Below, one piece after another: positions 13,976 through 37,309 of a DNA stretch of 64,000 bases. Position numbers and translations under genes: made by a program. Every line of letters begins with the position of its first letter. Positions within the stretch are counted from its first letter, which is position 1. The DNA comes from Artocarpus heterophyllus (taxonomy: Eukaryota; Streptophyta; Magnoliopsida; Rosales; Moraceae), in NCBI GenBank assembly GCA_025403435.1, contig JAJQZP010000440.1:62001-126000 (forward strand), written 5' to 3'. The notes under the pieces were generated by a model. It worked only from the letters and a program-made list of their open reading frames with translations. It had not been told where the DNA came from and made no database searches.

Positions 13976-14028
13976 TGTGACACCTGTTATTCTCCTAAGG
14001 GTATTAAGGTAATTAGATTAATTACCTA

Positions 14029-14041
14029 GTATATATATAAA
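14029..14041 (+). promoter_or_regulatory. TATA-like element of the LTR promoter
   Basis: The sequence agtatatatataa lies only about 55 bp from the LTR 5' end and is followed by CT-rich DNA typical of plant start sites. It recurs in LTR 2 (about 20640-20650) and LTR 3 (27264-27277). If used, U3 is unusually short and R-U5 is about 2.3 kb. Confidence 0.5.
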
Positions 14042-14842
14042 AAAAATCAGAAAATCTCTCATAATTCGAAACTCTCTCTCTCTACTTTCTCTCTCTAAAA
14101 AAATTCTCTCTCTCCTCAAAGATCGTTTGAGATTTCGGCATCCGTTTTCGACACCTCCCGCACCAATGGAAAGCTCTCGACGAGCTGAGTCCAACGAGGT
14201 GCTGCGCCGCCCAAAACGCCGCCGGAGGAGACCACACGCGCCGCCCAAAGTGGCGGCAAAACCCATTTCTTTCCGACGAGATATCTTCGTCGTCCGACGT
14301 CCGATCGACGTGATTCTTGTTTCTATACGACCACCGTGATGAGAGGAACAAAACCCACCCTTGGTGGCAGCTCAACAACCGCCGGATTGCTCCGCCCGCC
14401 TATTGCCGCCGTGCACCGCCGCCCCCATGGTGGAACTCCGCCTTGCCGGAGGAGGTGACTGACACCACCCCTCCCAATGAGTTCAGAGGATCAAGGGGAG
14501 TAAAACCCCTCGATCAATTGCACGGAAGGAGCCGGTTTCGCCGGAGAACGGCCAACGCCGCCGTCAACCGCCGCGGGAGCCTCCGTTTTGGCTCTTCCCA
14601 GCCACGTTTCTTCAAATTGGATGAGGGAAAATGCTCATAGGAGGATGGGTAGCAAAAACCCTCAGTCAATTTCAGGTTTCCATCGTCGGAGAATCAAGAT
14701 CGGAGCTCATCCATTTCTGCCGACGTTGTACTTCACGACCTGCTATGTTAGAGGCAGAATTGGGTGAAATTGACCCCGCCATTGGACTCAGAAGGGTCGA
14801 TTTAGGGGGGGTAGGCCCGAGCCCAGCTGCCAACGGACCCCG

Positions 14843-14920
14843 ATTGACGCCGGTCAACGACGGTCAAAGTCGGTCAACGCCGGTCAACGGTGGTCAACGC
14901 CGGTCAACGGCCAGTCAAAG
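14843..14920 (+). promoter_or_regulatory. GGTCAACG-type short repeat cluster (W-box-like cores) in LTR 1
   Basis: About six GGTCAA units plus one GTCAA and one TTGAC fall within 80 bp. GGTCAA is the reverse complement of TTGACC, the W-box core bound by WRKY factors. The cluster recurs in LTR 2 (about 21453-21531) and, with one extra 20-bp unit, in LTR 3 (about 28083-28181). If the TATA above is the start, the cluster is downstream of it. Confidence 0.5.
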
Positions 14921-15297
14921 GCTAAATTGGAATTTTGTGATCCGGACCTCCGATCGAAGATCCGAGACCGCCTCCTGACTCGTTTCGATGCTCTGGATGC
15001 AATGGTGACCTCCGTTTGAGCAAATTCTACTCCGATGAAAATCATCCGGTACCGACTGCACGCGAATCGAGGCGATTCAAACAGCAGTATCGGAGTCCAG
15101 AATGACGTTTTCAAGAATGTATGATCTCCAGGAAGCATTCCTAGCCATTCATAGTCGCTCGAGGAGCACTACAGAGGATGCTTCGTAGATACAGCGAGAT
15201 ACAACTGGATCTATTTTGCTTGGAGTTCAAGATCAAGGGAGTATGGAGCTAACGTTAATTGATTCCAGGATTAAGAGACTGTTGATAAGCTTGAAAG

Positions 15298-16011
15298 GTA
15301 GGGATTCTATTACTCATTTTTGTGAGGTTTTTATAGAATTAAAATTGATTGTTTTGCCGCAATATATATATATCTATGTTGAACTGATATTATATGAGTA
15401 TCACATATGAAACTATGACATGGACTCGTCTTGTATTGTACGGCGAGGAACATAATGAATTGACACATGTTATAAATTGAGAAGCATGGTTAGGAAAACT
15501 AACTCTATTAATAATGATTCAATATAGAGAAATTGTGAGACATGAAGAGGGCGACGGTTACGTCCTTGGGCATGAATACCCAAAAAGGTAAAATAGGAGG
15601 AAGGTGATGACGCTTCCTTGGGTTGAAAGTCCCAGAACACACTGTACATGAATCGATTTGGTGAGGACTCGGGGCTTGATGTCCCCTCACCAGAACACCC
15701 TTGGAATGTTTATAGGGTGATCAAGTGCGCCCATTTGGGTTTCGATGAGTTGAGTGATACTCAATTTAACATGGATATCTAGGAACAATGATGATTGGTA
15801 ATATTTGTATAAATGTGTAATTATGACACTTGGTAATGATTAACTACGGTATCCATAAGATGTGATCATAATAAACCTCATAATCTGGAATATGATGTGA
15901 CTTACTAACCATGCAGATTTTAATGTGGTAATGATAAAAACCTAAAGGTGAGTAATGGCTTTCTCTACTGAGCATAGTGTCGCTCATTCCCTTATGTTTA
16001 TATCTTTTCAG
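15298..16011 (+). other. Possible leader intron inside the LTR
   Basis: There is a donor-like ttgaaag|gtaggg at 15298 and a pyrimidine-rich acceptor tatcttttcag ending at 16011, with AT-rich sequence between. Both sites are conserved in the other two LTRs. Splicing is only inferred. Confidence 0.25.
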
Positions 16012-16376
16012 GACTCACTAAGTGTGAGGTGGCTACGAGAAATATAGTTGAGGAAGTGATGTAACTATATTACATTGGGACTGCTTCAATTGTTGAGAAT
16101 GTTCTTAATGATAATGTAAGCATCAATTGTTACTTTCTGTGACTGTATTACAATGTGTTGAGGGTTAAAATGATGATGACAACAGTTTATATTATTAAAT
16201 TTAAGGTGCTACATTAAAACTGTGGTTTAATTGTCGTTTACATTTTTATTTTTGAGTTGAGAGTTTTCATTTAAGTCTCCGGCAAATTTTATTTTTAAGG
16301 TTTTACTTTTACTATTTATTTTTATTTTATCTCATTAAAAACTGTTAACCCCCATATAGGGGCGTTACAGAATTTT

Positions 16377-16388
16377 TGGTATCAGAGC
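16377..16388 (+). promoter_or_regulatory. Primer-binding site (initiator tRNA-Met), unit 1
   Basis: TGGTATCAGAGC seven bases after LTR 1 is the standard plant PBS complementary to the 3' end of initiator tRNA-Met. Confidence 0.9.
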
Positions 16389-17827
16389 CTAGGTTCGGTT
16401 AACCTAGGGAGTGTAGCACCACTTTAAAAAATATATATTTTTGAGATGGTTTTGAAGCTGAATTTTCATTGTCATCATCAAAATGAACCTTCACATTGAT
16501 TTATACAGTCTAGAAGGATGTAACATGGAAATGCCATAGAATGAAAATATTAATAGTTATATGAGTACAATAATTATATAGAAGGAAAGTATTAATAGTT
16601 ATAAGAGAATGATAATTATATGGAATGAGTTTATAAGTAGAATGCTTATGAGAGATTCGTATAATATTTGGATCTATAAGCATATTTAATTCGTATAAAC
16701 GATGAGAAATTCGTGTAGATACGAGGATTTAAAAGCCTTTTGTCTCGTGAAAAACAATAAGAAATATAAGGCTTGATTTATTGATTTCAAAGTTTGGCAT
16801 AGATATGCCAAATTTTTCTTAATTGATTCAAACCTAAGTAATGATTATGTGTGGATTCGATGGAGCACATAAGTGTCAATAACTTTTCTTGAAAGTTCTA
16901 TTTATTTGAGGAATATGATATAAGTTGGGAATCATGGTATTGAATCTTGAGAGAGATAAATGTTAGACTTTTGGTCTGTTGAGACTGTGTAAAGTCTAGA
17001 ATGCATGAATCTCAAAATTGGAATATTTCGTTACGTACATTGTATTTAAGTGTATCAGTGAATCTTTTGGTTACCTAAGGTTTTGTTATATGAGGAAATT
17101 ATATATTGTATGAGTAGAATTGTGGGGATTGTAGATGTTCTTAAGTAGTAACATCTAGTGTCTTTGTTCATTGATATGGTCTATGTTGAAAGACGTAAAT
17201 CGTATTGATTTCAAGGTTAGTCGCATTCTAAACCCTTGGTAGTAATGATGATGAATCCATTGATAGATGTTAAGTATTATGAATAACATATGGGTGTATG
17301 CATTGTTCAATAAGGTTTTGATTAAAACAAAATTATTTGAGTTGCTGGATCATTCAGGAAGATCCTTGTTGTCGTTAAATTAGATTTGTTGTTCATACTT
17401 AACTTATCTATAGTGGACTTTGAATTGGGTTTAAGATTTATACAAATTGGTTTTCAATTTTATGTTTGTTATTTAACTCGTTCTAAATGTGTTAAGGCCC
17501 GAAACAACCTGACCATTTTCAACTAAGAACATTTGGGCCTAGTTCAAATCTTAAATCAGTTTGATTCACACTGTCTCTCCCACGTGGTTTCTATACGTGT
17601 CATATACAGTGGTTTAATTATTGTTTACAAATACGTTTACTGTGCATAGGAGCTTATTTCTCCGAGTTCACTTTTTCTCTCTTAATTTGTTATTTTCTCT
17701 CTAAATCGCAAATCCTCTTCTTTTTCATTAAAAATTCTTCTTTTTCTCTAAAAGAAGAAGGAATTCTAGGATTCTGCAATTTACTATCTTAATTTTTCCT
17801 TTCTATTTACTCTTCTTTCATCTCATC
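16389..17827 (+). other. Non-coding leader of internal region 1
   Basis: AT-rich and without a long ORF. A G-box CACGTG lies at 17581-17586. A CT-rich, intron-poor stretch follows (17660-17827) and leads into the first ORF, resembling a plant 5' UTR. This may be the ORF pair's own promoter and leader, or simply the retrotransposon leader. Confidence 0.4.
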
Positions 17828-18349
17828 ATGGACCCAAAGTACCAACACCTGAGAAAGTATTTCCCATCACTCTCCCAAAAGATTCTCAGAAAGAAATACA
17901 AGGCTAGAATTACTCGGTTGTGGATTCTTATGCGTTTTGGTATCCCTTGTGATGTGAGAATGTTGATAGAGGGGAAAATCCGTCCGAGTGACTTTAGTCA
18001 AGATGTCGGTTTACCAGGAATAGGTACCAGTCGTAGTGCAATGAAAAGAAGAGCTCGTGCCATCGTGGTCACTTGTAACAAATGTGGAAGACAAAATTGT
18101 AACGGTAAATGTACTTCACCTGGTTATATGTCTACGAATAGAGAGGATAAAATAAGGTTTTGTAGGGATGGACTTTCAAAGGAGAACTTGGATAGCATCC
18201 ATCCTCCTCTCCATGATCACCCTAGTGGATATGTTCAAGGAGCTATTTTTAAACTCTGGCCTAAATTTTATACAGAAAGACAACGCCTCAGGAATATGGT
18301 ATTTCTAGATCCTGTTTGCCAAGCCATAAGAAAACTGGATGGGGAATAA
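17828..18349 (+). CDS. Basic Cys-cluster protein of unknown function, copy 1 (173 aa)
   Basis: Intronless, starting at an ATG after a CT-rich leader. The protein is strongly basic in its first half. It has a cysteine cluster C83-x2-C86-x4-C91-x3-C95 directly after an R/K-rich stretch (K73-R-R-A-R), which suggests zinc and nucleic-acid binding. I do not recognise a plant family. The order basic patch, four cysteines, then Pro-Gly reminds me of small cysteine-rich nucleic-acid-binding proteins of some plant RNA viruses, but this is only a resemblance. Spacing differs from the CCHC knuckle of retroviral Gag. The C-terminus differs from copy 2 because one base is missing near 18320, which changes the last residues and ends the frame early at TAA 18347-18349. 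It lies 643 bp upstream of the LOG-like ORF on the same strand. Confidence 0.6.
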   Translation: MDPKYQHLRKYFPSLSQKILRKKYKARITRLWILMRFGIPCDVRMLIEGKIRPSDFSQDVGLPGIGTSRSAMKRRARAIVVTCNKCGRQNCNGKCTSPGYMSTNREDKIRFCRDGLSKENLDSIHPPLHDHPSGYVQGAIFKLWPKFYTERQRLRNMVFLDPVCQAIRKLDGE

Positions 18350-18992
18350 GTCATCGCTCTATAAAGGTTATTTAGTCTTTACTTATTTGAAGCAGTTTTA
18401 GCTGATGTTCAACAGTTTGTGTTTTTCTTTTACTCAGAATATTTGCTTTTGTGTTTGAAATAATTGTGATTATTAGATTGATACAGTAAGTGTTAATATC
18501 TTATTTAATTTATGATTTTCTTAAATATATATATAATAAAATATATTATCTTATCAGACACGTTACATACGGTACAGTAATATGTTTGAATTTTGAAAAG
18601 CTTATCCAGATATTTCAAGATTTGTGTCTCAAATTTCAAAAGTTCTACAGTATTTGTCGTTTATATTAAATTTCTAGACTTGGTGTATATTTGTCAAAAA
18701 GTCTACAGTTGTGTCAAGAGGGTCTTCTGTCAAATTGTTCTCAATTGTCAAAAGTTATACAATTAGAGTCTAATCTTTTTCAAAAAGTGAATCAGATTTT
18801 CTGTAAACTATCAATCACCTTATCTTACTTTCTTATCCGCATAAGATTTTGTTTAAATCTTTGGATTACCTTTTCATTACCTACTCGTCTATCTCTTTAG
18901 CCCTTTTTGTATATTTCTCATCTTTAAAATCTCATGTAGAACCCGAAGTCTAAGTGGAGCAGACATTAAGCAACCACTTCTATAAACCAAAT
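18350..18992 (+). other. Spacer between the two carried ORFs, unit 1
   Basis: AT-rich sequence without a convincing ORF. Short phrases with the pattern caaaa-gt-cta recur around 18640-18790. A transcript covering both ORFs would have the second far from the cap, so the spacer may contain a second promoter; none was recognised. Confidence 0.4.
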
Positions 18993-19643
18993 ATGTCTAC
19001 CTCCCAGTCCACGAAGAAAATAAAGAATGTCTGTGTCTTTTGTGGTTCCAGCCTTGGAAAAGATAAAGCTTATTTAGAAGCTGCAAATCACTTAGGGCAA
19101 GTCCTAGCACGCAAGAAGATTAACATAATCTATGGGGGTGGTAGTATAAAAATGATGGTAAATATGGCACTAGCAGCTAGGTCTAGCGACACTACTGATG
19201 TAAGAATTTGGCCTCATATTCCAGTTGAAGGAAACCTTTGTAAGGAAGCCATAGGTAAGGGAGAAGGAGTCAGGAGTATCCCTAAAAATTTTAAAGACAT
19301 AATCTATAATTCTGATGCTTTTATAGCATTACCTGGTGGTCTAGGTACTCTTGAGGAAATATTTATAGTTGCTTGTGGGCAATTGTTGGGCTTTTATTCC
19401 AAACCTTTGGGACTGCTGAACGTAAAGGGTTTTTATGACGGTCTTTTGAAATTTCTAGATTACGCTGTGGAAGAAAACATCACTACAGAATCGGAGAGAC
19501 AAATCTTTGTTACTGCTTCAACAGCTGAGGAATTGATAGATAAAATGCAAATCATACATCCAGAATCCGACACTGCAACATCCAAGCTTGAATGGGAAAG
19601 GGAAAGCCGGGAGCGGCCAATTGATTTGAATCTCCATCTGTAA
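18993..19643 (+). CDS. LOG: LOG-like (cytokinin riboside 5'-monophosphate phosphoribohydrolase family) protein carried by the retroelement, copy 1
   Basis: 216 aa from the first ATG; an in-frame GTG 39 nt upstream is not a plausible plant start. LOG enzymes release active cytokinin bases from their nucleotides in the cytosol or nucleus. Visible family features are C-V-F-C-G-S-S at 14-20, Y-G-G-G-S at 47-51, D-A-F-I-A-L-P-G-G-L-G-T-L-E-E at 108-122, and a C-terminal A-x-E-L-I-D-K-M near the usual end. The Arg-Lys pair that normally precedes the PGGxGTxxE motif in LOG proteins (RKxxM) is replaced here by Asn-Phe, and the region 52-95 is strongly diverged, so ordinary activity is doubtful. The gene is intronless, whereas plant LOG genes usually have several introns; this suggests capture from an RNA copy or a non-plant origin. 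Confidence 0.8.
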   Translation: MSTSQSTKKIKNVCVFCGSSLGKDKAYLEAANHLGQVLARKKINIIYGGGSIKMMVNMALAARSSDTTDVRIWPHIPVEGNLCKEAIGKGEGVRSIPKNFKDIIYNSDAFIALPGGLGTLEEIFIVACGQLLGFYSKPLGLLNVKGFYDGLLKFLDYAVEENITTESERQIFVTASTAEELIDKMQIIHPESDTATSKLEWERESRERPIDLNLHL

Positions 19644-20570
19644 TCTTTTTATTTTATCTTTGGCATGTAGGCATGTGTGTCCGTATTTCGTGTGTTACGA
19701 ATAACCGTTTGCCTGTATTCTGTGTTTCTTGTGGTACGTTGTTGTTCAATCTTTTAGATTCATTGAGCCTAATGCCGGGATGGCTGGATACGGAGTACTT
19801 GATGCTCTCGAAACGCATCCTTCTTAAGGTCCGATCTTTTGTTTATCGATGTTTTTGTATCCTCTAAGCATGCATGATATGGATAGCTGGGTACGGAGTG
19901 CCTTGTACTCTCGAAACGTATCCGTATTATGTTTGTAATGTGTAATATTCTGTTAATATTATGTGGAAGTACCAGAGTCAGTTATGGGGATATTCCATAT
20001 GAAATATGAGTATATTATTTGGGTTGAATGTTTGTGTCATGAGGATAGCTGTTTAATGAAAAATATGTCGGGTATGTTTGCAACCAGAGATTCCGTTTAA
20101 TATCTCTATGAATAAGTTTAATGTATAGTTTTGAATAAAAGTGTTTGTGATATATGTTTTATGATTATGTTTTAGTTTATTAGTAGAGGTATGAAATCAA
20201 ATATATTTGACTTTTCCTTACTCAAAAAGGAAAAGGAACCTAAAGATGAAGTATATAAAATTACTCTGGCAATCTCCTTAAATGTGATTGTAAATCACAG
20301 TCCATGGACAATGAAGGACTGGAATCATGATATGGTCAATATGTATGCCTGATCAGATTCTTAGACTATTATACGGTGTTATAAGTTGAAACTTGTCAGA
20401 AATACTCTCATTGAGGGATTTAGGAGTAAGATTTATTATGCAAGTAAATAAGTGGAGATACGATAACTTAAATTTGGAGGATAAACAACATTAACGGTTT
20501 AGACTCGGAATTGGAATCATAATTTTTACTAGTATTACTAGAATTGAAATTTCGAGGACGAAATTTCTTT
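19644..20570 (+). other. 3' non-coding part of internal region 1
   Basis: AT-rich. Two similar phrases (ggatacggagtacttgatgc and gggtacggagtgccttgtac types, at 19788 and 19889) are each followed by ctctcgaaacg. No ORF with family motifs. A gypsy-like cgaggacgaaatttc precedes the polypurine tract. Confidence 0.5.
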
Positions 20571-20584
20571 AAGGGGGGTAGAGC
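20571..20584 (+). promoter_or_regulatory. Polypurine tract, unit 1
   Basis: aaggggggtagagc lies immediately 5' of the TGTGATACC start of LTR 2 and would prime plus-strand synthesis. An identical tract lies at 27198-27211 before LTR 3. Confidence 0.85.
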
Positions 20585-22982
20585 TGTGATACCCGTTATT
20601 CTCCTAAGGGTATTAAGGTAATTAGATTAATTACCTAGGTATATATATAAAAAAAATCAGAAAATCTCTCATAATTCGAAACTCTCTCTCTCTCTACTTT
20701 CTCTCTAAAAAAATTCTCTCTCTCTCCTCAAAGATCGTTTGAGATTTCGGCATCCGTTTTCGACACCTCCCGCACCAATGGAAAGCTCTCGACGAGCTGA
20801 GTCCAACGAGGTGCCGCGCCGCCCAAAACGCCGCCGGAGGAGACCACACGCGCCGCCCAAAGTGGCGGCAAAACCCATTTCTTTCCGACGAGATATCTTC
20901 GTCGTCCGACGTCCGATCGACGTGATTCTTGTTCTATACGACCACCGTGATGAGAGGAACAAAACCCACCCTTGGTGGCAGCTCAACAACCGCCGGATTG
21001 CTCCGCCCGCCTATTGCCGCCGTGCACCGCCGCCCCCATGGTGGAACTCCGCCTTGCCGGAGGAGGTGACTGACACCACCCCTCCCAATGAGTTCAGAGG
21101 ATCAAGGGGAGTAAAACCCCTCGATCAATTGCACGGAAGGAGCCGGTTTCGCCGGAGAACGGCCAACGCCGCCGTCAACCGCCGCGGGAGCCTCCGTTTT
21201 GGCTCTTCCCAGCCACGTTTCTTCAAATTGGATGAGGGGAAATGCTCATAGGAGGATGGGTAGCAAAAGCCCTCAGCCAATTTCAGGTTTCCATCGTCGG
21301 AGAATCAAGATCGGAGCTCATCCATTTCTACCGACGTTGTACTTCACGACCCGCTATGTTAGAGGCAGAATTGGGTGAAATTGACCCCGCCATTGGACTC
21401 AGAAGGGTCGATTTAGGGGGGGTAGGCCCGAGCCCAGCTGCCAACGGACCCCGATTGACGCCGGTCAACGACGGTCAAAGTCGGTCAACGCCGGTCAACG
21501 GTGGTCAACGCCGGTCAACGGCCAGTCAAAGGCTAAATTGGAATTTTGTGATCCGGACCTCCGATCGAAGATCCGAGACCGCCTCCTGACTCGTTTCGAT
21601 GCTCTGGATGCAATGGTGACCTCCTTTTGAGCAAATTCCTACTCCGATGAAAATCATCCGGTACCGACTGCACGCAAATCGAGGCGATTCAAACAGCAGT
21701 ATCGGAGTCCAGAATGACGTTTTCAAGAATGTATGATCTCCAGGAAGCATTCCTAGCCATTCATAGTCGCTCGAGGAGCACTACAGAGGATGCTTCGTAG
21801 ATACAGCGAGATACAACTGGATCTGTTTTGCTTGGAGTTAAATATCAAGGGAGTATGGAGCTAACGTTAATTGATTCCAGGATTAAGAGACTGTTGATAA
21901 GCTTGAAAGGTAGGGATTCTATTACTCATCTTTTGTGAGGTTTTTATAGAATTAAAATTGATTGTTTTGCCGCAATATATATATATCTATGTTGAACTGA
22001 TATTATATGAGTATCACATATGAAACTATGACATGGACTCGTCTTGTATTGTACGGCGAGGAACATAATGAATTGACACATGTTATAAATTGAGAAGCAT
22101 GGTTAGGAAAACTAACTCTATTAATAATGATTCAATATAGAGAAATTGTGAGACATGAAGAGGGCGACGGTTACGTCCTTGGGCATGAATACCCTAAAAG
22201 GTAAAATAGGGGAAGGTGATGACGCTTCCTTGGGTTGAAAGTCCCAGAACACACTGTACAGGAATCGATTTGGTGAGGACTCGGGGCTTGATGTCCCCTC
22301 ACCGGAACACCCTTGGAATGTTTATAGGGTGATCAAGTGCGCCCATTTGGGTTTCGATGAGTTGAGTGATACTCAATTTAACATGGATACCTAGGAACAA
22401 TGATGATTGGTAATATTTGTATAAATGTGTAATTATGACACTTGGTAATGATTAACTACGGTATCCATAAGATGTGATCATAATAAACCTCATAATCTGG
22501 AATATGATGTGACTTACTAACCATGCAGATTTTAATGTGGTAATGATAAAAACCTAAAGGTGAGTAATGGCTTTCTCTACTGAGCATAGTGTCGCTCATT
22601 CCCTTATGTTTATATCTTTTCAGGACTCACTAAGTGTGAGGTGGCTACGAGAAATATAGTTGAGGAAGTGATGTAACTATATTACATTGGGACTGCTTCA
22701 ATTGTTGAGAATGTTCTTCATGATAATGTAAGCATCAATTGTTACTTTCTGTGACTGTATTACAATGTGTTGAGGGTTAAAATGATGATGACAACAGTTT
22801 ATATTATTAAATTTAAGGTGCTACATTAAAACTGTGGTTTAATTGTCGTTTATATTTTTATTTTTGAGTTGAGAGTTTTCATTTAAGTCTCCGGGCAAAT
22901 TTTATTTTTAAGGTTTTACTTTTATTATTTATTTTTATTTTATCTCATTAAAAACTGTTAACCCCCATATAGGGGCGTTACA
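20585..22982 (+). repeat. LTR 2 (shared by both units)
   Basis: 2398 bp, TG...CA. Nearly identical to LTR 1 and LTR 3. It acts as 3' LTR of unit 1 and 5' LTR of unit 2. Confidence 0.9.
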
Positions 22983-22989
22983 GAATTTT

Positions 22990-23001
22990 TGGTATCAGAG
23001 C
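22990..23001 (+). promoter_or_regulatory. Primer-binding site (initiator tRNA-Met), unit 2
   Basis: TGGTATCAGAGC seven bases after LTR 2, as in unit 1. Confidence 0.9.
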
Positions 23002-24440
23002 CTAGGTTCGGTTAACCTAGGGAGTGTAGCACCACTTTAAAAAATATATATTTTTGAGATGGTTTTGAAGCTGAATTTTCATTGTCATCATCAAAATGAA
23101 CCTTCACATTGATTTATACAGTCTAGAAGGATGTAACATGGAAAGGCCATAGAATGAAAATATTAATAGTTATATGAGTACAATAATTATATAGAAGGAA
23201 AGTATTAATAGTTATAAGAGAATGATAATTATATGGAATGAGTTTATAAGTAGAATGCTTATGAGAGATTCGTATAATATTTGGATCTATAAGCATATTT
23301 AATTCGTATAAACGATGAGAAATTCGTGTAGATACGAGGATTTAAGAGCCTTTTGTCTCGTGAAAAACAATAAGAAATATAAGGCTTGATTTATTGATTT
23401 AAAGTTTGGACATAGATATGCCAAATTTTTCGTAATTGATTCAAACCTAAGTAATGATTATGTGTGGATTCGATGGAGCACATAAGTGTCAATAACTTTT
23501 CTTGAAAGTTCTATTTATTTGAGGAATATGATATAAGTTGGGAATCATGGTATTGAATCTTGAGAGAGATAAATGTTAGACTTTTGGTCTGTTGAGACTG
23601 TGTAAAGTCTAGAATGCATGAATCTCAAAATTGGAATATTTCGTTACGTACATTGTATTTAAGTGTATCAGTGAATCTTTTGGTTACCTAAGGTTTTGTT
23701 ATATGAGGAAATTATATATTGTATGAGTAGAATTGTGGGGATTGTAGATGTTCTTAAGTAGTAACATCTAGTGTCTTTGTTCATTGATATGGTCTATGTT
23801 GAAAGACGTAAATCGTATTGATTTCAAGGTTAGTCGCATTCTAAACCCTTGGTAGTAATGATGATGAATCCATTGATAGATGTTAAGTATTATGAATAAC
23901 ATATGGGTGTATGCATTGTTCAATAAGGTTTTGATTAAAACAAAATTATTTGAGTTGCTGGATCATTCAGGAAGATCCTTGTTGTCGTTAAATTAGATTT
24001 GTTGTTCATACTTAACTTATCTATAGTGGACTTTGAATTGGGTTTAAGATTTATACAAATTGGTTTTCAATTTTATGTTTGTTATTTAACTCGTTCTAAA
24101 TGTGTTAAGGCCCGAAACAACCTGACCATTTTCAACTAAGAACATTTGGGCCTAGTTCAAATCTTAAATCAGTTTGATTCACACTGTCTCTCCCACGTGG
24201 TTTCTATACGTGTCATATACAGTGGTTTAATTATTGTTTACATATACGTTTACTGTGCATAGGAGCTTATTTCTCCGAGTTCACTTTTTCTCTCTTAATT
24301 TGTTATTTTCTCTCTAAATCGCAAATCCTCTTCTTTTTCATTAAAAATTCTTCTTTTTCTCTAAAAGAAGAAGGAATTCTAGGATTCTGCAATTTACTAT
24401 CTTAATTTTTCCTTTCTATTTACTCTTCTTTCATCTCATC
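23002..24440 (+). other. Non-coding leader of internal region 2
   Basis: Near-identical copy of 16389-17827, including the G-box CACGTG at 24194-24199 and the CT-rich leader before the ORF. Confidence 0.5.
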
Positions 24441-24989
24441 ATGGACCCAAAGTACCAACACCTGAGAAAGTATTTCCCATCACTCTCCCAAAAGATTCTC
24501 AGAAAGAAATACAAGGCTAGAATTACTCGGTTGTGGATTCTTATGCGTTTTGGTATCCCTTGTGATGTGAGAATGTTGATAGAGGGGAAAATCCGTCCGA
24601 GTGACTTTAGTCAAGATGTCGGTTTACCAGGAACAGGTACCAGTCGTAGTGCAATGAAAAGAAGAGCTCGTGCCATCGTGGTCACTTGTAACAAATGTGG
24701 AAGACAAAATTGTAACGGTAAATGTACTTCACCTGGTTATATGTCTACGAATAGAGAGGATAAAATAAGGTTTTGTAGGGATGGACTTTCAAAGGAGAAC
24801 TTGGATAGCATCCATCCTCCTCTCCACGGTCACCCTAGTGGATATGTTCAAGGAGCTATTTTTAAACTCTGGCCTAAATTTTATACAGAAAGACAACGCC
24901 TCAGGAATATGGTATTTCTAGATCCTGTTTGTCCAAGCCATAAGAAAACTGGATGGGGAATAAGTCATCGCTCTATAAAGGTTATTTAG
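24441..24989 (+). CDS. Basic Cys-cluster protein of unknown function, copy 2 (182 aa)
   Basis: Same protein as at 17828-18349, with I65 replaced by T and one Asp to Gly change near the His/Pro-rich stretch before the C-terminal third. The frame continues past the point where copy 1 shifts (gtttgtcc here, gtttgcc there) and ends in S-I-K-V-I. Without an outgroup I cannot say which C-terminus is ancestral. The four-cysteine cluster and basic patch are unchanged. Confidence 0.6.
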   Translation: MDPKYQHLRKYFPSLSQKILRKKYKARITRLWILMRFGIPCDVRMLIEGKIRPSDFSQDVGLPGTGTSRSAMKRRARAIVVTCNKCGRQNCNGKCTSPGYMSTNREDKIRFCRDGLSKENLDSIHPPLHGHPSGYVQGAIFKLWPKFYTERQRLRNMVFLDPVCPSHKKTGWGISHRSIKVI

Positions 24990-25607
24990 TCTTTACTTAT
25001 TTGAAGCAGTTTTAGCTGATGTTCAACAGTTTGTGTTTTTCTTTTACTCAGAATATTTGCTTTTGTGTTTGAAATAATTGTGATTATTAGATTGATACAG
25101 TAAGTGTTAATATCTTATTTAATTTATGATTTTCTTAAATATATATATAATAAAATATATTATCTTATCAGACACGTTACATACGGTACAGTAATATGTT
25201 TGAATTTTGAAAAGCTTATCCAGATATTTCAAGATTTGTGTCTCAAATTTCAAAAGTTCTACAGTATTTGTCGTTTATATTAAATTTCTAGACTTGGTGT
25301 ATATTTGTCAAAAAGTCTACAGTTGTGTCAATGAGGGTCTTCTGTCAAATTGTTCTCAATTGTCAAAAGTTATACAATTAGAGTCTAATCTTTTTCAAAA
25401 AGTGAATCAGATTTTCTGTAAACTATCAATCACCTTATCTTACTTTCTTATCCGCACAAGATTTTGTTTAAATCTTTGGATTACCTTTTCATTACCTACT
25501 CGTCTATCTCTTTAGCCCTTTTTGTATATTTCTCATCTTTAAAATCTCATGTAGAACCCGAAGTCTAAGTGGAGCAGACATTAAGCAACCACTTCTATAA
25601 ACCAAAT
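24990..25607 (+). other. Spacer between the two carried ORFs, unit 2
   Basis: Near-identical to 18350-18992. Small indels open a 102-codon frame (25207-25515) that is closed in unit 1. It has no recognisable motif, so it is not called as a gene. Confidence 0.4.
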
Positions 25608-26258
25608 ATGTCTACCTCCCAGTCCACGAAGAAAATAAAGAATGTCTGTGTCTTTTGTGGTTCCAGCCTTGGAAAAGATAAAGCTTATTTAGAAGCTGCA
25701 AATCACTTAGGGCAAGTCCTAGCACGCAAGAAGATTAACATAATCTATGGGGGTGGTAGTATAAAAATGATGGTAAATATGGCACTAGCAGCTAGGTCTA
25801 GCGACGCTACTGATGTAAGAATTTGGCCTCATATTCCAGTTGAAGGAAACCTTTGTAAGGAAGCCATAGGTAAGGGAGAAGGAGTCAGGAGTATCCCTAA
25901 AAATTTTAAAGACATAATCTATAATTCTGATGCTTTTATAGCATTACCTGGTGGTCTAGGTACTCTTGAGGAAATATTTATAGTTGCTTGTGGGCAATTG
26001 TTGGGCTTTTATTCCAAACCTTTGGGACTGCTGAACGTAAAGGGTTTTTATGACGGTCTTTTGAAATTTCTAGATTACGCTGTGGAAGAAAACATCACTA
26101 CAGAATCGGAGAGACAAATCTTTGTCACTGCTTCAACAGCTGAGGAATTGATAGATAAAATGCAAATCATACATCCAGAATCCGACACTGCAACATCCAA
26201 GCTTGAATGGGAAAGGGAAAGCCGGGAGCGGCCAATTGATTTGAATCTCCATCTGTAA
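25608..26258 (+). CDS. LOG: LOG-like protein carried by the retroelement, copy 2
   Basis: 216 aa from ATG 25608. By eye it differs from copy 1 by one amino acid (T67 to A) and one silent change. It keeps CVFCGSS, YGGGS and PGGLGTLEE and has the same replacement of the usual Arg-Lys pair. The frame is fully open in both units, while the neighbouring ORF and spacers already differ by indels. That is compatible either with constraint on the LOG-like ORF or with simple youth. Confidence 0.8.
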   Translation: MSTSQSTKKIKNVCVFCGSSLGKDKAYLEAANHLGQVLARKKINIIYGGGSIKMMVNMALAARSSDATDVRIWPHIPVEGNLCKEAIGKGEGVRSIPKNFKDIIYNSDAFIALPGGLGTLEEIFIVACGQLLGFYSKPLGLLNVKGFYDGLLKFLDYAVEENITTESERQIFVTASTAEELIDKMQIIHPESDTATSKLEWERESRERPIDLNLHL

Positions 26259-27197
26259 TCTTTTGTTTTATCTTTGGCATGTAGGCATGTGTGTCCGTAT
26301 TTCGTGTGTTACGAATAACCGTTTGCCTTGTATTCTGTGTTTCTTGTGGTACGTTGTTGTTCAATCTTTTAGATTCATTGAGCCTAATGCCGGGATGGCT
26401 GGATACGGAGTACTTGATGCTCTCGAAACGCATCCTTCTTAAGGTCCGATCTTTTGTTTATCGATGTTTTTGTATCCTCTAAGCATGCATGATATGGATA
26501 GCTGGTATACGGAGTGCCTTGTACTCTCGAAACGTATCCGTATTATGTTTGTAATGTGTAATATTCTGTTAATATTATGTGGAAGTACCAGAGTCAGTTA
26601 TGGGGATATTCCATATGAAATATGAGTATATTATTTGGATTGAATGTTTGTGTCATGAGGATAGCTGTTTAATGAAAAATATGTCGGGTATGTTTGCAAC
26701 CAGAGATTCCGTTTAATATCTCTATGAATAAGTTTAATGTATGGTTTTGAATATAAGTGTTTGTGATATATGTTTTATGATTATGTTTTAGTTTATTAGT
26801 TGAGGTATGAAATCAAATATATTTGACTTTTCCTTACTCAAAAAGGAAAAGGAACCTAAAGATGAAGTATATAAAATTTCTCTGGCAATCTCCTTAAATG
26901 TGATTGTAAATCACAGTCCATGGACAATGAAGGACTGGAATCATGATATGGTCAATATGTATGCCTGATCAGATTCTTAGACTATTATACGGTGTTATAA
27001 GTTGAAACTTGTCAGAAATACTCTCATTGAGGGATTTAGGAGTAAGATTTATTATGCAAGTAAATAAGTGGAGATACGATAACTTAAATTTGGAGGACAA
27101 AGAACATTAACGGTTTAGACTCAGAATTGGAATCATAGTGGAATCATAATTTTTACTAGTATTACTAAAATTGGAATTTCGAGGACGAAATTTCTTT
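26259..27197 (+). other. 3' non-coding part of internal region 2
   Basis: Copy of 19644-20570 with small indels, including a short local duplication (ggaatcata) near 27128-27146. No gene seen. Confidence 0.5.
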
Positions 27198-27211
27198 AAG
27201 GGGGGTAGAGC
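27198..27211 (+). promoter_or_regulatory. Polypurine tract, unit 2
   Basis: aaggggggtagagc directly before the TGTGACACC start of LTR 3. Confidence 0.85.
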
Positions 27212-29631
27212 TGTGACACCCGTTATTCTCCTAAGGGTATTAAGGTAATTAGATTAATTACCTAGTATATATATAAAAAAAATCAGAAAATCTCTCATAA
27301 TTCGAAACTCTCTCTCTCTCTACTTTCTCTCTCTAAAAATTCTCTCTCTCTCTCCTCAAAGATCGTCTGAGATTTCGGCATCCGTTTTCGACACCTCCCG
27401 CACCAATGGAAAGCTCTCGACGAGCTGAGTCCAACGAGGTGCCGCGCCGCCCAAAACGCCGCCGGAGGAGACCACACGCGCCGCCCAAAGTGGCGGCAAA
27501 ACCCATTTCTTTCCGACGAGATATCTTCGCCGTCCGACGTCCGATCGACGTGATTCTTGTTCCTACACGACCACCGTGATGAGAGGAACAAAACCCACCC
27601 TTGGTGGCAGCTCAACAACCGCCGGATTGCTCCGCCCGTCTATTGCCGCCGTGCACCGCCGCCCCCATGGTGGAACTCCGCCTTGCCGGAGGAGGTGACT
27701 GACACCACCCCTCCCAATGAGTTCAGAGGATCAAGGGGAGTAAAACCCCTCGATCAATTGCACGGAAGGAGCCGGTTTCGCCGAAGAACGGCCAACGCCG
27801 CCGTCAACCGCCGCGGGAGCCTCCGTTTTGGCTCTTCCCAGCCACGTTTCTTCAAATTGGATGAGGGGAAATGCTCATAGGAGGATGGGTAGCAAAAGCC
27901 CTCAGCCAATTTCAGGTTTCCATCGTCGGAGAATCAAGATCGGAGCTCATCCATTTCTACCGACGTTGTACTTCACGACCCGCTATGTTAGAGGCAGAAT
28001 TGGGTGAAATTGACCCCGCCATTGGACTCAGAAGGGTCGATTTAGGGGGGGTAGGCCCGAGCCCAGCTGCCAACGGACCCCGATTGACGCCGGTCAACGA
28101 CGGTCAAAGTCGGTCAACGCCGGTCAACGGTGGTCAACGCCGGTCAACGGTGGTCAACGCCGGTCAACGGCCAGTCAAAGGCCAAAATGGGATTTTGTGA
28201 TCCGGACCTCCGATCGAAGATCCGAGACCGCCTCCTGACTCGTTTCGATGCTCTGGATGCAATGGTGACCTCCGTTCGAGCAAATTCCACTCTGATGAAA
28301 ATCATCCAGTACCGACTGCACGCGAATCGAGGCGATTCAAACAGCAGTATCGGAGTCCAGAATGACGTTTTCAAGAATGTATGATCTCCAGGAAGCATTC
28401 CTAGCCATTCATAGTCGCTCGAGGAGCACTACAGAGGATGCTTCATAGATACAGCGAGATACAACTGGATCTGCTTTGCTTGGAGTTCAAGATCAAGGGA
28501 GTATGGAGCTAACGTTAATTGATTCCAGGATTAAGAGACTGTTGATAAGCTTGAAAGGTAGGGATTCTCTTACTCATCTTTTGTGAGGTTTTTATAGAAT
28601 TAAAATTGATTGTTTTGCTGCAATATATATATATATCTATGTTGAACTGATATTATATGTGTATCACATATGAAACTATGACATGGACTCGTCTTGTATT
28701 GTACGGCGAGGAACATAATGAATTGACACATGTTATAAATTGAGAAGCATGGTTAGGAAAATTAACTCTATTAATAATGATTTAATATAGAGAAATTATG
28801 AGACATGAAAAGGGCGACGGTTACGTCCTTGGGCATAAATACCCTAAAAGGTAAAATAGGGGGAAGGTGATGACGCTTCCTTGGGTTGAAAGTCCCAGAA
28901 CACACTGTACAGGAATCGATTTGGTGAGGACTCGGGGCTTGATGTCCCCTCACCGGAACACCCTTGGAATGTTTATAGGGTGATCAAGTGCGCCCACTTG
29001 GGTTTCGATGAGTTGAGTGATACTCAATTTAACATGGATACCTAGGAACAATGATGATTGGTAATATTTGTATAAATGTGTAATTATGACACTTGGTAAT
29101 GATTAACTACGGTATCCATAAGATGTGATCATAATAAACCTCATAATCTGGAATATGATGTGACTTACTAACCATGCAGATTTTAATGTGGTAATGATAA
29201 AAACCTAAAGGTGAGTAATGGCTTTCTCTACTGAGCATAGTGTCGCTCATTCCCTTATGTTTATATCTTTTCAGGACTCACTAAGTGTGAGGTGGCTACG
29301 AGAAATATAGTTGAGGAAGTGATGTAGCTATATTACATTGGGACTGCTTCAATCGTTGAGAATGTTCTTCATGATAATGTAAGCATCAATTGTTACTTCT
29401 GTGACTGTATTATAATGTGTTGAGGGTTAAAATGATGATGACAACAGTTTATATTATTAAATTTAAGGTGCTACATTAAAACTGTGGTTTATTTGTCGTT
29501 TATATTTTTATTTTTGAGTTGAGAGTTTTCATTTAAGTCCCGGGCAAATTTTATTTTTAAGGTTTTACTTTTATTATTTATTTTTATTTTATCTCATTAA
29601 AAACTGTTAACCCCCATATAGGGGCGTTACA
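27212..29631 (+). repeat. LTR 3
   Basis: 2420 bp. It is longer than LTRs 1 and 2, mainly because of an additional GGTCAACG-type unit (ggtggtcaacgccggtcaac at about 28130-28170). It ends GGGGCGTTACA at 29631 and is followed by unrelated sequence rather than a PBS, so it is the outer 3' LTR. Confidence 0.9.
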
Positions 29632-31838: not shown

Positions 31839-33229
31839 TCTTCATGTTGAATCATTGAGAATCAATAATTTTCTATATGTGATTCTCATTATAAATTCTC
31901 AAATTTAACAATCTATGGTTTTATAAAATTGTTGAATTTGAGAACAATTATTTTAAAATTTTGGTTGAATTATTCAAAGAATACGTTATTGTATTCATGT
32001 ATAGACATATATATGTGTTTGGAGAATTCGGGTAAAGGTTGAAAGAATCCTTTGGTTGCAATGTACGACATGTTGCCGAAAAGTGAAAAAAAAAAGTTAT
32101 ATATATGAATCAGTTTTGTTTTTATTGCAACATTCACTGTTAAGTTCGTATGGTTTTGGATTCATTATACATTTTCTTTTCTTTTCTGCCTAAAGACGGC
32201 TCTGTTGCCAAGAAAGTATAAAAAAATGAATAAATAAATAAAGAGGCTTTAAGGCCTTTCGCCGGCGGCTGGCCTTGTCACTGCCGGCGTCGACCTCGTC
32301 TGGGAGTGGCGACTAGGCCACGCCAGTGAGAAAGCGCCAGCCAGAAAAAGGTGAAGTGGCAGCGCCAGCCAGAAATAGGTAATGACCGCCTCCACCATTC
32401 TAGCCCAAAGGGATCGGATGACCCCTAGGGCATCTTTAGGGCGGGTCTGGGCTTCGGCCCAGCCTTGAGAATTTTATTTTTTTTTAGTTGGGCCCGTGAC
32501 AAGTTATAAGCCTCTAGGTTACCAGTTAACCAAAAAAAAAAGGGGGGGGACAAGCATACACGGGCCCAACTGGGCCCATGACTGGACAAAGGGCAGCCAT
32601 ACACGGGCTGGGCCCATGACCGGTAAGTCCCCAGGGGTTCAACCCCTGGGTGACCCGAAAAAAAAAAAGGAAATAAAGGGGGCTGGTTTAGGATCCGGGT
32701 AGGGTTCTCTCGACCCTGTCAATGTTGACCTTGACCAAATTTTTTTTTATTTTTTATTTTTTATTTTTAATTTTGGTCAATTTTGGTGCAATTTTAAATT
32801 CAAATATTGGTATTTTATATATATTTTGAGATGAATTAATTTAAGCAATATGTCACCAAAGTGGCCTCTCTTGTGGAAATTAATTTGTTTTGAAATGTAA
32901 AAAGTTGTGTTTATGTAACTTATGTGAATATTGACTACCCAAAGGAAGGCAATATTTGACAGAATTGCATGTACACCTGTGGTGATAAACACGTGATGAT
33001 TATTCGGTTTTACATGTAAGCAATAAATCAGCCCAAATGAAGATTTATTGTTTGACATGTTCTTATTGTCAGTGTTTGATTACTACACCAAGATATCACT
33101 TACAAGTTAATATTTCTGTCCAAAGACTAAATATTAATGGAGTGCCCGATATCTTGAGATGGGTTACCTTTATTTGGATTTATTATTGTTATTATGGATT
33201 CTTATGTGAGCTTGTTTTGGTTTTGTTTA
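31839..33229 (+). other. Copia untranslated leader
   Basis: About 1.4 kb without a convincing ORF. A locally GC-rich patch at 32250-32700 contains repeated ccagccagaaa (32337 and 32368) and ggcccatgac phrases (32572 and 32611), and is followed by a T-rich tract (32740-32790). Confidence 0.5.
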
Positions 33230-36200
33230 TTTTGTTCTCTGTTTCAACTACTAGTTCTGCCTCTAATATTACTGCCAACATCAATTCAATTCCTATGCTG
33301 AATGGTAGCAACTTCAAATCATGGCAAGAGAACCTCCTAATAGTTCTCGGAGTCATGGATCTCGACCTTGCGTTAAGGGTTCCTTCTCCCGCACCTCTTA
33401 CAGATAAAAGTTCCTCTGATCAAAAGAAGGACATGGAAAGGTAGGAGAAGTCAAATCGCATGTGTATGATGATCATGAAGAAGGCCATTCCAGAAGCATT
33501 CAGGGACACTATATCGGAAACGATAAAGACAGCCAAAGAGTTCCTTGAGGACATTGAGAAGAGATTTGCCAAAAATGAAAAGGCTGAAACAAGTACACTT
33601 TTGGCAAACCTCATCTCAATGAGATACAAAAGTAAAGGGAACATTAGGGAGTACATCATGGAGATGTCTCATCTTGCTTCAAAATTAAGAGCACTTAAGC
33701 TTGACCTTTCTGAGGACTTGCTAGTGCATTTGGTTCTTATATCTCTTCCTGCACATTTCAGTCAGTTTAAGGTGAGCTACAACTGCCAAAAGGAGACTTG
33801 GTCTCTTAATGAGCTCATCTCACATTGTGTGCAAGAAGAGGAAAGGTTGAAGCAAGAAAAGACAAAAAGTGCTCACTTGGCTAATACTTCCAAGGACAAC
33901 AGGAAGAAAAGGAAGAAGGATAAGGAAGCTGCAGTTACGGCACCTCAAAAGAAGCAACAAAAGAGACCAGTTGATCTCGAAGGTACGGGTTGTTTTTCTG
34001 TGGAGCTGCAGGACATAACAAGAAGCACTGCACCAATTATCATGCTTGGCACGCTAGAAAAGGTATGCTTCTTAATTTGGTTTGTTCTGAGGTTAATTTA
34101 ACTTTGGTACCTAAACACACTTGGTGGATGGATTCTGGTGCAACCACTCACATTAGTGTGTCTATGCAGGGATGCCTGAGATGCCGAAAGCCAACTGATG
34201 GTGAAAGATACATCTACGTGGGCAATGGCAAGAAAGTTGAAGTTGAAGCAATAGGAAAATTTAGATTATTGTTAAAGACTGGATTTTATTTGAATCTTGA
34301 TAAAACATTTATTGTACCGTCTTTTAGACGGAATTTGATTTCTATTTCAGCTTTGGACAAATCTGGTTATTCTTGTTCATTTGGAAATGAAAAAATTTAG
34401 TTTGTTTCATGATTCAAAATTGGTTGGTTCCGGTTCTTTATCAGGTTACGATAATCTTTATTTGCTTGATACAATTGCTTCATTTAATGAATCCTTGCAA
34501 TTAAGTACACGAGGTATAAAGAGAAAATTAACCAATGAGAATTCAGTTGCGTTATGGCACAAGAGATTGGGTCATATCTCCAGATGGAGAATAGAGAGAC
34601 TTGTGTCATACGAAATTCTCGACCCCTTAGACTTTACAGATTTTGATATTTGTGTTAACTGTATTAAGGGGAAACAAACCAATAAAAGGAGATTTGAAGC
34701 CAACAGGACTTTGGACGTCTTAGAACTTATACATACAGACATTTGTGAGCCATTCCCTACGGCTTCTTGGAATGGTCAACAATATTTTATAACGTTCATA
34801 GACGATTTTTTCAGATATGGCTACATATATCTCATTCATGAAAAGTCACAGTCGCTGGATGTGTTCAAAAATTATAAGGCTGAAGTTGAAAATCAACTCA
34901 GCAAAAGGATTAAAAGCATCAGATCTGACCATGGTGGTGAATACTATAGTAGATATGACGGTTCAGGTGAACAACGTCCAGGACCGTTTGCTAAGTTCCT
35001 AGAGGAAAGCGGTATCGTCCCACAGTACACTATGCCGGGTTCGCCCACTATAAATGGTGTTGCTGAAAGACGAAACAGAACGCTTAAGGACATGGTGAGG
35101 AGTATGATTTCTCATTCTATCTTACCAGAATCACTTTGGGGAGAAGCACTTAAGACTGCAGCATATATCCTTAACAGGGTTCCAACTAAAGCAACTACCA
35201 AAACCCCTTACGAACTTTGGACAGGCAAGAAGCCTAGTATAAAGCATTTACATGTTTGGGGATGTCCAGCTGAGGCAAGGCCTTATAGGCCTAATGAAAA
35301 AAAAAACTAGACTCGAGGACGGTTAGTTGTTATTTATTGGATACTCTGAAAGATCCAGGGGGTACAAGTTTTATGATCCCACCACCAAATCGATATTTGA
35401 GATGGGAAATGCCAGGTTTTTTGAGGATGTCGAGTTTGCGGGGGGAGATATGGTTAGGGACTTTGTCTTTGAAGAGGAATATGTTGATATTCCCATAGCT
35501 GTTATTGACATTGATCAGGTTTCTACTCCTGACATCGTTCAAGAAGCAGACCCAAATCAAGACAATGTCGGAGAACCTCCCATTCCAGAAATTGTTCCAA
35601 AAGAACAAACTCAACCACCTCAAGAACTTATGTCATTAAGGAGATCCACTAGAGAAAGGAGAAGTGCGGTGCCAGATGATTATATTGTATTTCTCCAAGA
35701 ACATGAGTATGACATTGGTATGGTGGAAGATGATCCAATCAACTTCCGTCAAGCCATGGAAAGTTCTAGATCTCAAGAGTGGATTGATGCCATGAATGAA
35801 GAGATAAAGTCTATGAAAGACAATGACGTTTGGGATCTTGTCCCATTGCCTGAAGGTGCGAAACCCATTGGTTGCAAATGGATATTTAAGACCAAGAGGG
35901 ATTCAAAAGGCAATGTGCAGAGGTATAAGGCTCATCTTGTCGCTAAAGGCTTTACATAGAAAGAATGCATTTATTATAAAAAGACTTTCTCTCTGGTTTA
36001 TTCGAAAGACTCTTTTAGGATTATAATGGCATTAGTGACACATTTTGATCTTGAGCTTTATCAAATGGATGTTAAGACTATGTTCCTCAATGGTGACATT
36101 GATGAAACAATCTATATGGTGCAACCGGAAAACTTTGTGTCGGGAGATACAAAGAAGATGGTTTGCAAATTAAAGAAATCCATTTATGGGCTTAAGCAAG

Positions 36201-37309
36201 CTTCTCGTCAGTGGTGTTACAAATTTAAGCAAATTATCATCTCGTTTGGTTTTGAGATGAATTTGGTTGATGATTGTATATACCACAAGTTTAGTGGGAG
36301 TAAGTATATTTTTTTAGTTTTATATGTCGATGACATTTTGCTTGCCAGCAACGATATAGTCTTTTTGCACGAAACCAAGAGATTTCTATCAAAGAAATTT
36401 GAGATGAAGGATCTTGGTGACGCCTCTTTTGTGTTGGGTATACAGATACACCGGGATCGCTCTCGGGGTACTTTAGGATTATCACAAAAGGGCTATATCG
36501 AAAAGATTCTTAAAAGATATGGCATGCAGGATTGTAAACCAGGTGATACCCCTGTGGCTAAGGGAGACAAGTTGAGTCTCAATCAGTGCCCTAAGAATGA
36601 TTTTGAGGTTAAGAAAATGCAGAAGATTCCTTATGCGTCAGTAGTAGGGAGTCCAATGTATGTTCAGGTTTGTACGCGTCTGGATATTGCGTACATTACA
36701 GGGATGTTGGGCAGGTACTTAAGCAATCCTGGAAAGGATCACTGGGTAGCAGCCAAACGAGTCTTGAGGTATTTTCAGAGAACAAAGGATTACATGCTCA
36801 CGTATCGGAGGTCAGAATAGCTTGAGATCATTGGGTATACTGACTCTGATTTTGCTGGATGCCAAGATAGTATGAAATCTACATCGGGCTATGTCTACCT
36901 TATGGCTGGAGGTGTTGTCTCTTGGAAGAGTGCTAAACAGTCTCTTATAGCATCTTCTACAATGGCAGCAGAGTTCATAGCGTGTTATGAGGCATCCAAT
37001 CATGGAATATGGCTGCGAAATTTTGTCACGGGGCTGCGTATAGTGGACAGTATTCAAAGACCACTCAAGATATTTTGTGACAATAAGTCAGCAGTTTTGT
37101 ATTCCAACAACAACAGGAGCTCGACGAAGTCAAAGCATATAGAGATCAAGTTCCTAGTTGTGAAAGAAAGAGTTCAGAGTGGACAGTTGTCTATAGAGCA
37201 CATCGGCACAAACTCCATGATTGCGGATCCGCTTACTAAAGGATTGTCACCCAAAATGTTTCATGAGCACACTGCTCGTATGGGTGTCATATCATTTCAG
37301 GATATTTAG
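33230..37309 (+). pseudogene. Copia gag-pol polyprotein, interrupted
   Basis: The Gag part has the copia L-N-G-S-N-F-K-S-W start and a C-x2-C-x4-H-x4-C zinc knuckle at about 33993-34035. The protease motif W-M-D-S-G-A-T-T-H lies near 34123. Integrase has H-T-D near 34731 and the later Asp and Glu in S-D-H-G-G-E and N-G-V-A-E-R. RT has Y-V-D-D-I-L-L near 36325. The RNase H end has A-D-P-L-T-K-G-L near 37220. Breaks: stop TAG at 33442, a frame change near 34000, a frame change at an A-run near 34390, a frame change at an A-run near 35297, and stops at 35957 and 36818. The element is not autonomous. Confidence 0.9.

Follow-up and report, generated by a model that had tools for sequence, protein, structure and literature searches.

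A High-Copy LTR Retrotransposon of Artocarpus heterophyllus Without Detectable gag-pol Carries a Carlavirus-NABP-like and a LOG-like Reading Frame Under Apparent Purifying Selection

Introduction

Why should a retrotransposon in which the genes for mobility are not detected carry two other open reading frames (ORFs), and do so in most of the copies examined? The question is raised by positions 13976-29631 of a 64,000-nucleotide stretch of the Artocarpus heterophyllus genome (assembly GCA_025403435.1, contig JAJQZP010000440.1, positions 62,001 to 126,000 of the forward strand; the whole stretch is referred to below as the window), where long terminal repeats (LTRs) enclose internal regions that encode ORF A, a protein resembling the nucleic-acid-binding proteins (NABPs) of carlaviruses, and ORF B, a protein resembling the LOG enzymes of cytokinin activation. 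The common view of non-autonomous elements is that they code for nothing and live off a partner; here there are thousands of copies, with two ORFs under apparent selection, and the most telling observation is the constraint on the proteins of an element without detected gag-pol.

Results

The window array has the order LTR-internal-LTR-internal-LTR, with two units that have the middle LTR in common, LTRs of 2.39-2.42 kb and internal regions of 4.2 kb (Table 1). Its primer-binding site (PBS), TGGTATCAGAGCC, is of the initiator tRNA-Met type; in both units it follows a seven-base spacer at the start of the internal region, whose other end carries the polypurine tract AAGGGGGG a few bases ahead of the next LTR. 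Internal 1 contains 42 stop-to-stop frames of at least 40 aa, among which only ORF A and ORF B exceed 80 aa, and no Pfam match of any kind was obtained at E<=0.1 in the 10 frames scanned out of the 40 others; an extra 102-aa frame in unit 2 (25207-25515) has its unit 1 counterpart (18670-18900) among those scanned. The element is without detectable gag-pol. The initial annotation had described LTRs, a PBS and a polypurine tract (PPT) with no gag-pol, and both the anatomy and the Pfam scan bear this out; its further statement that two ORFs are kept in both units holds for both ORFs of unit 1 and for ORF B of unit 2, but not for ORF A of unit 2, which has a frameshift close to its C-terminus.

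Table 1. Coordinates of the array in the window (numbering of the 64,000-nucleotide stretch).
Feature	Positions	Strand	Remarks
LTR1	13976..16369	+	Starts TGTGACACC, ends GGGGCGTTACA
Internal 1	16370-20584		
PBS of unit 1	16377..16389	+	TGGTATCAGAGCC; 7-base spacer after LTR1
ORF A of unit 1	17828..18349	+	Carlavirus-NABP-like, 173 aa, intact
ORF B of unit 1	18993..19643	+	LOG-like; 216 aa with ATG start, 229 aa with GTG start at 18954; EAR-like tail IDLNLHL
PPT of unit 1	20571..20578	+	AAGGGGGG
LTR2	20585..22982	+	Common to both units
Internal 2	22983-27211		
PBS of unit 2	22990..23002	+	LTR2 end and bases after it
ORF A of unit 2	24441..24989	+	Frameshift near end (182 aa, C-terminus altered)
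ORF B of unit 2	25608..26258	+	Intact
PPT of unit 2	27198..27205	+	
LTR3	27212..29631	+	

The units are closely similar, with BLAST identities of 98.7% (LTR1/2), 97.4% (LTR2/3), 96.8% (LTR1/3) and 99.06% (internals); counting substitutions only, the LTRs differ by 1.05% (LTR1/2), 1.50% (LTR2/3) and 2.21% (LTR1/3). A 5-bp target duplication is absent around the array (left TTAAC, right ATAAT), and a single recent unequal crossing-over was rejected as its source, LTR2 having no clean breakpoint between LTR1-like and LTR3-like sequence. Elsewhere in the genome five LOG copies lie 6.62-6.66 kb apart at C9:16537152-16564415, pairs of LOG copies are spaced by 6.1-6.9 kb on contigs C3, C4 and C7, and on contig C1 two junctions are flanked by three LTR ends at 6.6-kb spacing; since tandem units recur in this way, arrays with shared LTRs may form often. 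At 33037-37309 of the window, Ty1/copia-like frames were seen by eye amid ABC-transporter-like frames.

Copy numbers were obtained from the host genome (985 Mb in 334 contigs) as counts of exact sequence words, whose lengths differ between features, with the same pattern read backwards as a control. The LTR/PBS junction word occurs 2,687 times, the LOG word 2,747 times, the NABP word 2,063 times and the LTR-end word 5,182 times, and the backward control is 0 in each case. Because the counts run to thousands against none in the controls, the family is beyond chance. With about 1.9 LTR ends for each junction, most elements would seem to be complete and solo LTRs to be few, bearing in mind that the two words differ in length. 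Searching with the LOG ORF turned up 6,183 first-look candidates, which are not to be equated with confirmed copies; in each of the 150 that were scored the frame stays open over 229 aa, with 99-100% identity.

Contig C1, where the junction, LOG and NABP words were listed in full, served as a sample for pairing. Downstream of its 65 junctions there is a LOG word in 58, a NABP word in 50, both in 48 and neither in 5; seen from the ORFs, 51 of the 53 NABP words are followed by a LOG word and 51 of the 64 LOG words are preceded by a NABP word. Most of the examined copies thus carry both ORFs, and a LOG-like ORF confined to the window locus and unconnected with LTRs, the outcome that would have spoken against the initial annotation, is not what is found. 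Also on C1, two LTR-end words at 1007781-1016485 lie 8.7 kb apart, whereas 6.1-6.9 kb is usual, and neither a junction nor a LOG word is listed for the interval; this pair may be a longer relative or two separate LTRs. A search for an autonomous partner, in the form of an LTR end, a variable spacer and a PBS, gave 2,156 matches with no distinct partner among the 100 places listed, 98 of which have one and the same spacer and the other 2 a one-base difference.

Mobility was assessed on 20 fetched copies, a non-random set made up of the highest-ranked of the 150 listed matches minus the window copy and four others; 17 were measured, and L034, L036 and L040, which are interrupted by other copies or insertions, were dropped. 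All 17 have a PPT-like tract and the same PBS as the window, and in 16 of them the 5-bp target duplication is perfect; L037 continues into a further unit. The two LTRs of a copy show no substitutions in 10 of the 17 (some with gaps), 0.04-0.46% in 6 and 1.32% in L037. The family is a high-copy, recently mobile LTR element; with LTR-bounded copies by the thousand, and target duplications in nearly every measured one, the idea that a mobile element spreads a LOG-like ORF is borne out. At the substitution rate of 1.3e-8 per site per year used for LTR dating, zero difference in 2 kb suggests an insertion dating back, on this scale, some tens of thousands of years at most, and the 2.21% between the outer LTRs suggests that the window array is near 0.85 million years old. 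Fetched internals align to internal 1. The LTRs of L025-L044 and of the window have their first ~72 and last ~1,140 bases in common and unrelated middles, which are AT-rich (740-1,139 nt, 30% GC) in 12 of the 14 measured and of the window's GC-rich form (53.5% GC) in 2.

Both ORFs show apparent signs of purifying selection. For ORF A the ratio of nonsynonymous to synonymous polymorphism (pN/pS) is 0.181 in a set of 20 gap-free sequences, taken mostly from LOG-chosen copies, and 0.214 in a set of 19 chosen by ORF A; for ORF B it is 0.290 among 17 sequences chosen by ORF A, the figure of 0.054 obtained with 22 sequences being biased since most were LOG-chosen. ORF A is intact in 18 of 20 LOG-chosen copies, and ORF B in 17 of the 19 ORF A-chosen loci that reach it, L045 included. 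Nucleotide diversity over 20 internals is 0.0044 for LOG, 0.0127 for ORF A and 0.0102-0.0270 for non-coding pieces; the dip at ORF A is by itself not decisive, and the ratio of the types of change is.

A more distant comparison is provided by L045 (C17:24140600-24141118), a diverged pair in which ORF A is 75% and ORF B 62.5% identical and the DNA between the ORFs 37% different. Ratios of nonsynonymous to synonymous divergence (dN/dS) against L045 are 0.146 for ORF A and 0.264 for ORF B. The L045 LOG retains GGGSLGLMG, the MHxRK Arg and an EAR-like tail, and the core changes described below therefore belong to the amplified family. ORF A of L045 is found at ten genome places (83-100%), nine of them with stops, and the 2.6 kb upstream of it (L065) has no match to the window LTR or internal region, its longest frame being 112 aa. 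L045 is the sole intact pair of this older family of about ten places, and the survivor could be a domesticated copy.

As judged from profile matches, ORF A is a member of a large plant family that matches carlavirus nucleic-acid-binding proteins, and the Cys protein of the initial annotation is not an orphan. Of 15 relatives from a first search, 14 carry precomputed labels for Carla_C4 (PF01623) and some also for Viral_NABP (PF05515); with a profile, 856 proteins were retrieved at E<=1, and all 120 listed bear the Carla_C4 label, the named hosts among them being plants throughout (Xanthoceras, Populus, Acer, Rhamnella, Orobanche and Hibiscus). Our own Pfam scan of the family at E<=1e-3 found PF05515 in 46 of 63 members and PF01623 likewise in 46 of 63. 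The pattern C-x2-C-x4-C-x2-4-C is present in 107 of 125 relatives, and ORF A has a basic stretch besides its Cys cluster. In viral contigs 54 stretches match the ORF A pattern, none of which was confirmed as a relative. A recent carlavirus insertion was rejected as the source of ORF A, its relatives forming a large plant family and no viral contig encoding one. Candidate NABP-LOG fusions in Xanthoceras (P0017-P0019, 336-381 aa) were likewise set aside, as on reading they look like LOG-LOG duplications. Cys-rich proteins of carlaviruses and mandariviruses act in silencing suppression, according to two reports (PMC12172455, PMC3689765).

ORF B matches PF03641 (E 9.7e-22), and its best solved match is the Arabidopsis LOG-family protein 2a33, which its structural model (pLDDT 76.1, last 21 residues disordered) matches at E 1.1e-15; on the strength of this model ORF B keeps the LOG fold. 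PGGxGTxxE is kept, and in the window protein the Arg and Lys of MHxRK, of which the Arg has a catalytic role in LOG enzymes, are replaced by N and F and YGGGSxGLMG is altered (GLMG to KMMV). With these residues changed, ORF B seems likelier to serve as a nucleotide-binding scaffold than as an enzyme of cytokinin activation, and a direct effect on host cytokinin, as envisaged at the outset, becomes less likely. Of 7,767 relatives at E<=0.001, 120 were listed; 94 of these have LxLxL within their last 12 residues, and among the other 26 are host LOGs, proteins too short to reach the tail and a few in which the tail is altered. Among the 94 the MHxRK Lys is absent in 93 and the Arg kept in 85, the window family being without both. 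The window tail, LNLHL, lies in the disordered region of the model, an accessible place, and may recruit a TOPLESS-type corepressor, as its EAR-like sequence suggests.

In a tree of 35 hand-chosen LOG rows a branch with support 99/98 separates all 26 EAR-tailed rows, together with the short and tail-less P0034, from 8 other LOGs; the branch of window ORF B is very long (1.45), which ORF's exact position is unsure. Where the host of an EAR-tailed relative is named, it is Populus or Reevesia. LOG relatives are found at 15 loci in viral contigs, with 25-62% identity in the best segment.

A link to a different gypsy lineage comes from L016, a 3.3-kb contig that is filed under a bacterial metagenome-assembled genome but, judged by what it encodes, looks like plant DNA. 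It encodes a Ty3/gypsy integrase (PF00665, E 2.3e-16; PF17921, E 1.2e-12) and, 204 nt past the integrase stop, a 182-aa relative of ORF A that is 51% identical over 178 residues and scores above the Viral_NABP cut-off (34.2 vs 23 bits). Between ORF A and this relative silent sites are near saturation (dN 0.46, pS 0.75). Both its integrase and a G-rich tract within it look Athila/Tat-like. By eye, the pyrimidine-rich stretch at ~1630-1665, between pol and the NABP ORF, ends in CTGCAG and is splice-acceptor-like, as for env-like messages. None of the 150 scored NABP matches in the host genome (from 5,265 candidates) is closer to L016 than to known types.

The signature of the window LTR and PPT is reminiscent of Tekay. 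Since a tRNA-Met PBS is found in most chromoviruses and in Ty1/copia lineages with complete tRNA primers, and not in non-chromoviruses (PMC6317226), the LTR shell of the window is probably of chromovirus type. Of the chromovirus traits the element has the tRNA-Met PBS, and a gag-pol with chromodomain was not detected; of the Athila-type traits, its PBS is tRNA-Met rather than non-chromovirus and pol was not detected. Since at least ORF A has a counterpart behind the pol of another gypsy lineage, the cargo probably moved between retrotransposon lineages. It had been allowed from the start that related full elements might hold gag-pol here, the window copy being a chance local insertion; the L016 relative just past a gypsy integrase goes some way to meet the former, whereas the form without gag-pol is the one amplified here and not a chance local insertion.

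Discussion

The explanation that we consider the best overall, and to which we would give a little less than an even chance, is that of an element without gag-pol that is mobilised by a partner and whose two proteins raise its own success. The partner, probably of chromovirus type, would supply Gag and Pol. ORF A would bind the element RNA and, as its most likely role, shield it from silencing, a role proposed because proteins of the viral family suppress RNA silencing, and ORF B would act as a nucleotide-binding scaffold from which the exposed LxLxL tail recruits a TOPLESS-type corepressor. Both proteins would work in cis, favouring the RNA that encodes them; selection among young non-autonomous copies suggests as much, and the constraint on both ORFs is hard to explain unless their products help their own encoding RNA. 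That the two form a counter-defence module, an NABP shield together with an EAR-tailed LOG pseudoenzyme that commandeers the corepressor, acting in cis and moving between lineages, is a tentative proposal about which we have real doubts.

Several observations weigh against this account. The autonomous partner was not found, and the PBS type also fits Ty1/copia. Window ORF A scores 16.4 bits against a cut-off of 23, below both Pfam cut-offs; its AlphaFold model is mediocre (pLDDT 73.7, pTM 0.45) and its best viral structure match, the Cherry mottle leaf virus 15 kDa protein, is weak (E 0.084, TM 0.19). Among 20 copies chosen by ORF A, the neighbouring units L050 and L051 have the tail of ORF B changed to DFNLHL. 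Two non-coding pieces (0.0102 and 0.0125) are less diverse than ORF A, the low diversity of LOG stems from the choice of copies by LOG protein match, and in young copies intact ORFs may simply be inherited, with no selection acting on the single copy.

This last point is the core of a rival in which the ORFs are passengers of a large retrotransposon derivative (LARD), now functionless and intact through youth and a few intact masters. Most measured copies are indeed very young, and large parts of the LTR have been freely replaced with mobility retained; pN/pS values of 0.18-0.29 among copies, and dN/dS of 0.15 and 0.26 against L045 across inter-ORF DNA that is 37% different, argue the other way, and we regard the passenger explanation as unlikely. 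Also rather unlikely is a deletion derivative, whereby an autonomous gypsy element with both ORFs past pol and the same LTR shell lost gag-pol, with no transfer between lineages. The pol-NABP order of L016 is what it predicts, and both the 5 of 65 C1 junctions without either ORF word and the LTR-end pair 8.7 kb apart might be longer relatives. However, a tRNA-Met PBS is reportedly absent from non-chromoviruses whereas the L016 integrase looks Athila/Tat-like, and none of the 150 scored NABP matches is nearer to L016 than to known types.

The remaining rivals concern what the proteins do. ORF A might take over the nucleocapsid role of Gag, as an RNA chaperone into the particles of the partner with no part in silencing, which would suit its basic stretch and Cys cluster in an element without its own detected gag; yet the L016 relative follows the integrase, and the element to which both belong can be presumed to possess a gag itself (the contig is too short to show it), and we think this role improbable. 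Were ORF B an active cytokinin-activating LOG that shifts host hormone balance for the benefit of the element, the retained fold and PGGxGTxxE would be accounted for, and a cell-division signal could favour the element, but the replacement of the MHxRK Arg and Lys and the KMMV of the window copy leave this very improbable indeed.

A partner-mobilised element aided by its own two proteins is of interest in that ORF A appears to belong to an RNA-virus family that suppresses RNA silencing, which as a defence keeps transposons in check as well, and the repression-type tail of ORF B is common to the majority of the plant relatives listed for it. If the account is true, it becomes possible to test directly, in one system, whether plant retrotransposons bring along counter-defence genes of their own.

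Comparison with Known Systems

LARDs have long LTRs, a PBS, a PPT, no gag-pol and a high copy number, and have been described as non-coding. The window family is like them in its long LTRs, PBS and PPT, lack of detected gag-pol and high copy number, and unlike them in its two ORFs under apparent selection (pN/pS <0.3). With the Cys-rich/NABP proteins of carlaviruses ORF A has a basic stretch and a Cys cluster in common, and there are Pfam matches in its family; in contrast to the viral proteins the family members are of ~180 aa with long flanks, reside in plant genomes and space their Cys residues as C-x2-C-x4-C-x2-4-C, as opposed to C-x2-C-x9-C-x4-C in Potato virus H. The cytokinin enzymes of the plant LOG family have the fold and PGGxGTxxE in common with ORF B, which differs in its changed MHxRK, its EAR-like tail, the lack of introns and its thousands of transposon copies.

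LOG-type ORFs in retrotransposons have precedents. Steinbauerova 2011 is said to have described LOGL4-like ORFs in two Athila-like elements. YgdH (LOG) domains have been recorded in gypsy consensuses of Citrus sinensis and C. clementina, and of Populus trichocarpa with a filter off (PMC9289625), in a paper that cites Steinbauerova et al. 2011. These are, as here, LTR retrotransposons with a LOG-family ORF, and Populus also has EAR-tailed LOG relatives; they differ in having been found through reverse transcriptase, hence with pol, and the section that treats them mentions neither a carlavirus-type ORF nor an EAR tail. The literature searched, mostly without subscription journals, yielded no paper that connects the carlavirus NABP family with LTR retrotransposons and no NABP and LOG ORF pair in an element without gag-pol. 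The remark in the initial annotation that no described family with this ORF pair was known agrees with these searches, and has to be qualified in that LOG ORFs of gypsy elements are on record.

Extra ORFs of plant LTR retrotransposons are reviewed in PMC7264820, which describes the antisense ones as without similarity to other transposable elements or viruses. Those of Athila/Tat elements lie downstream of pol, the position of the ORF A relative in L016, whereas the window element has no detected gag-pol, a tRNA-Met PBS and an NABP-like rather than env-like ORF. Orchid gypsy elements that carry an AlkB-like m6A demethylase ORF are large (25 kb) and autonomous (PMC9289625), and their protein is another one; like the window family they represent a gypsy lineage with a fixed ORF proposed to act on host surveillance.

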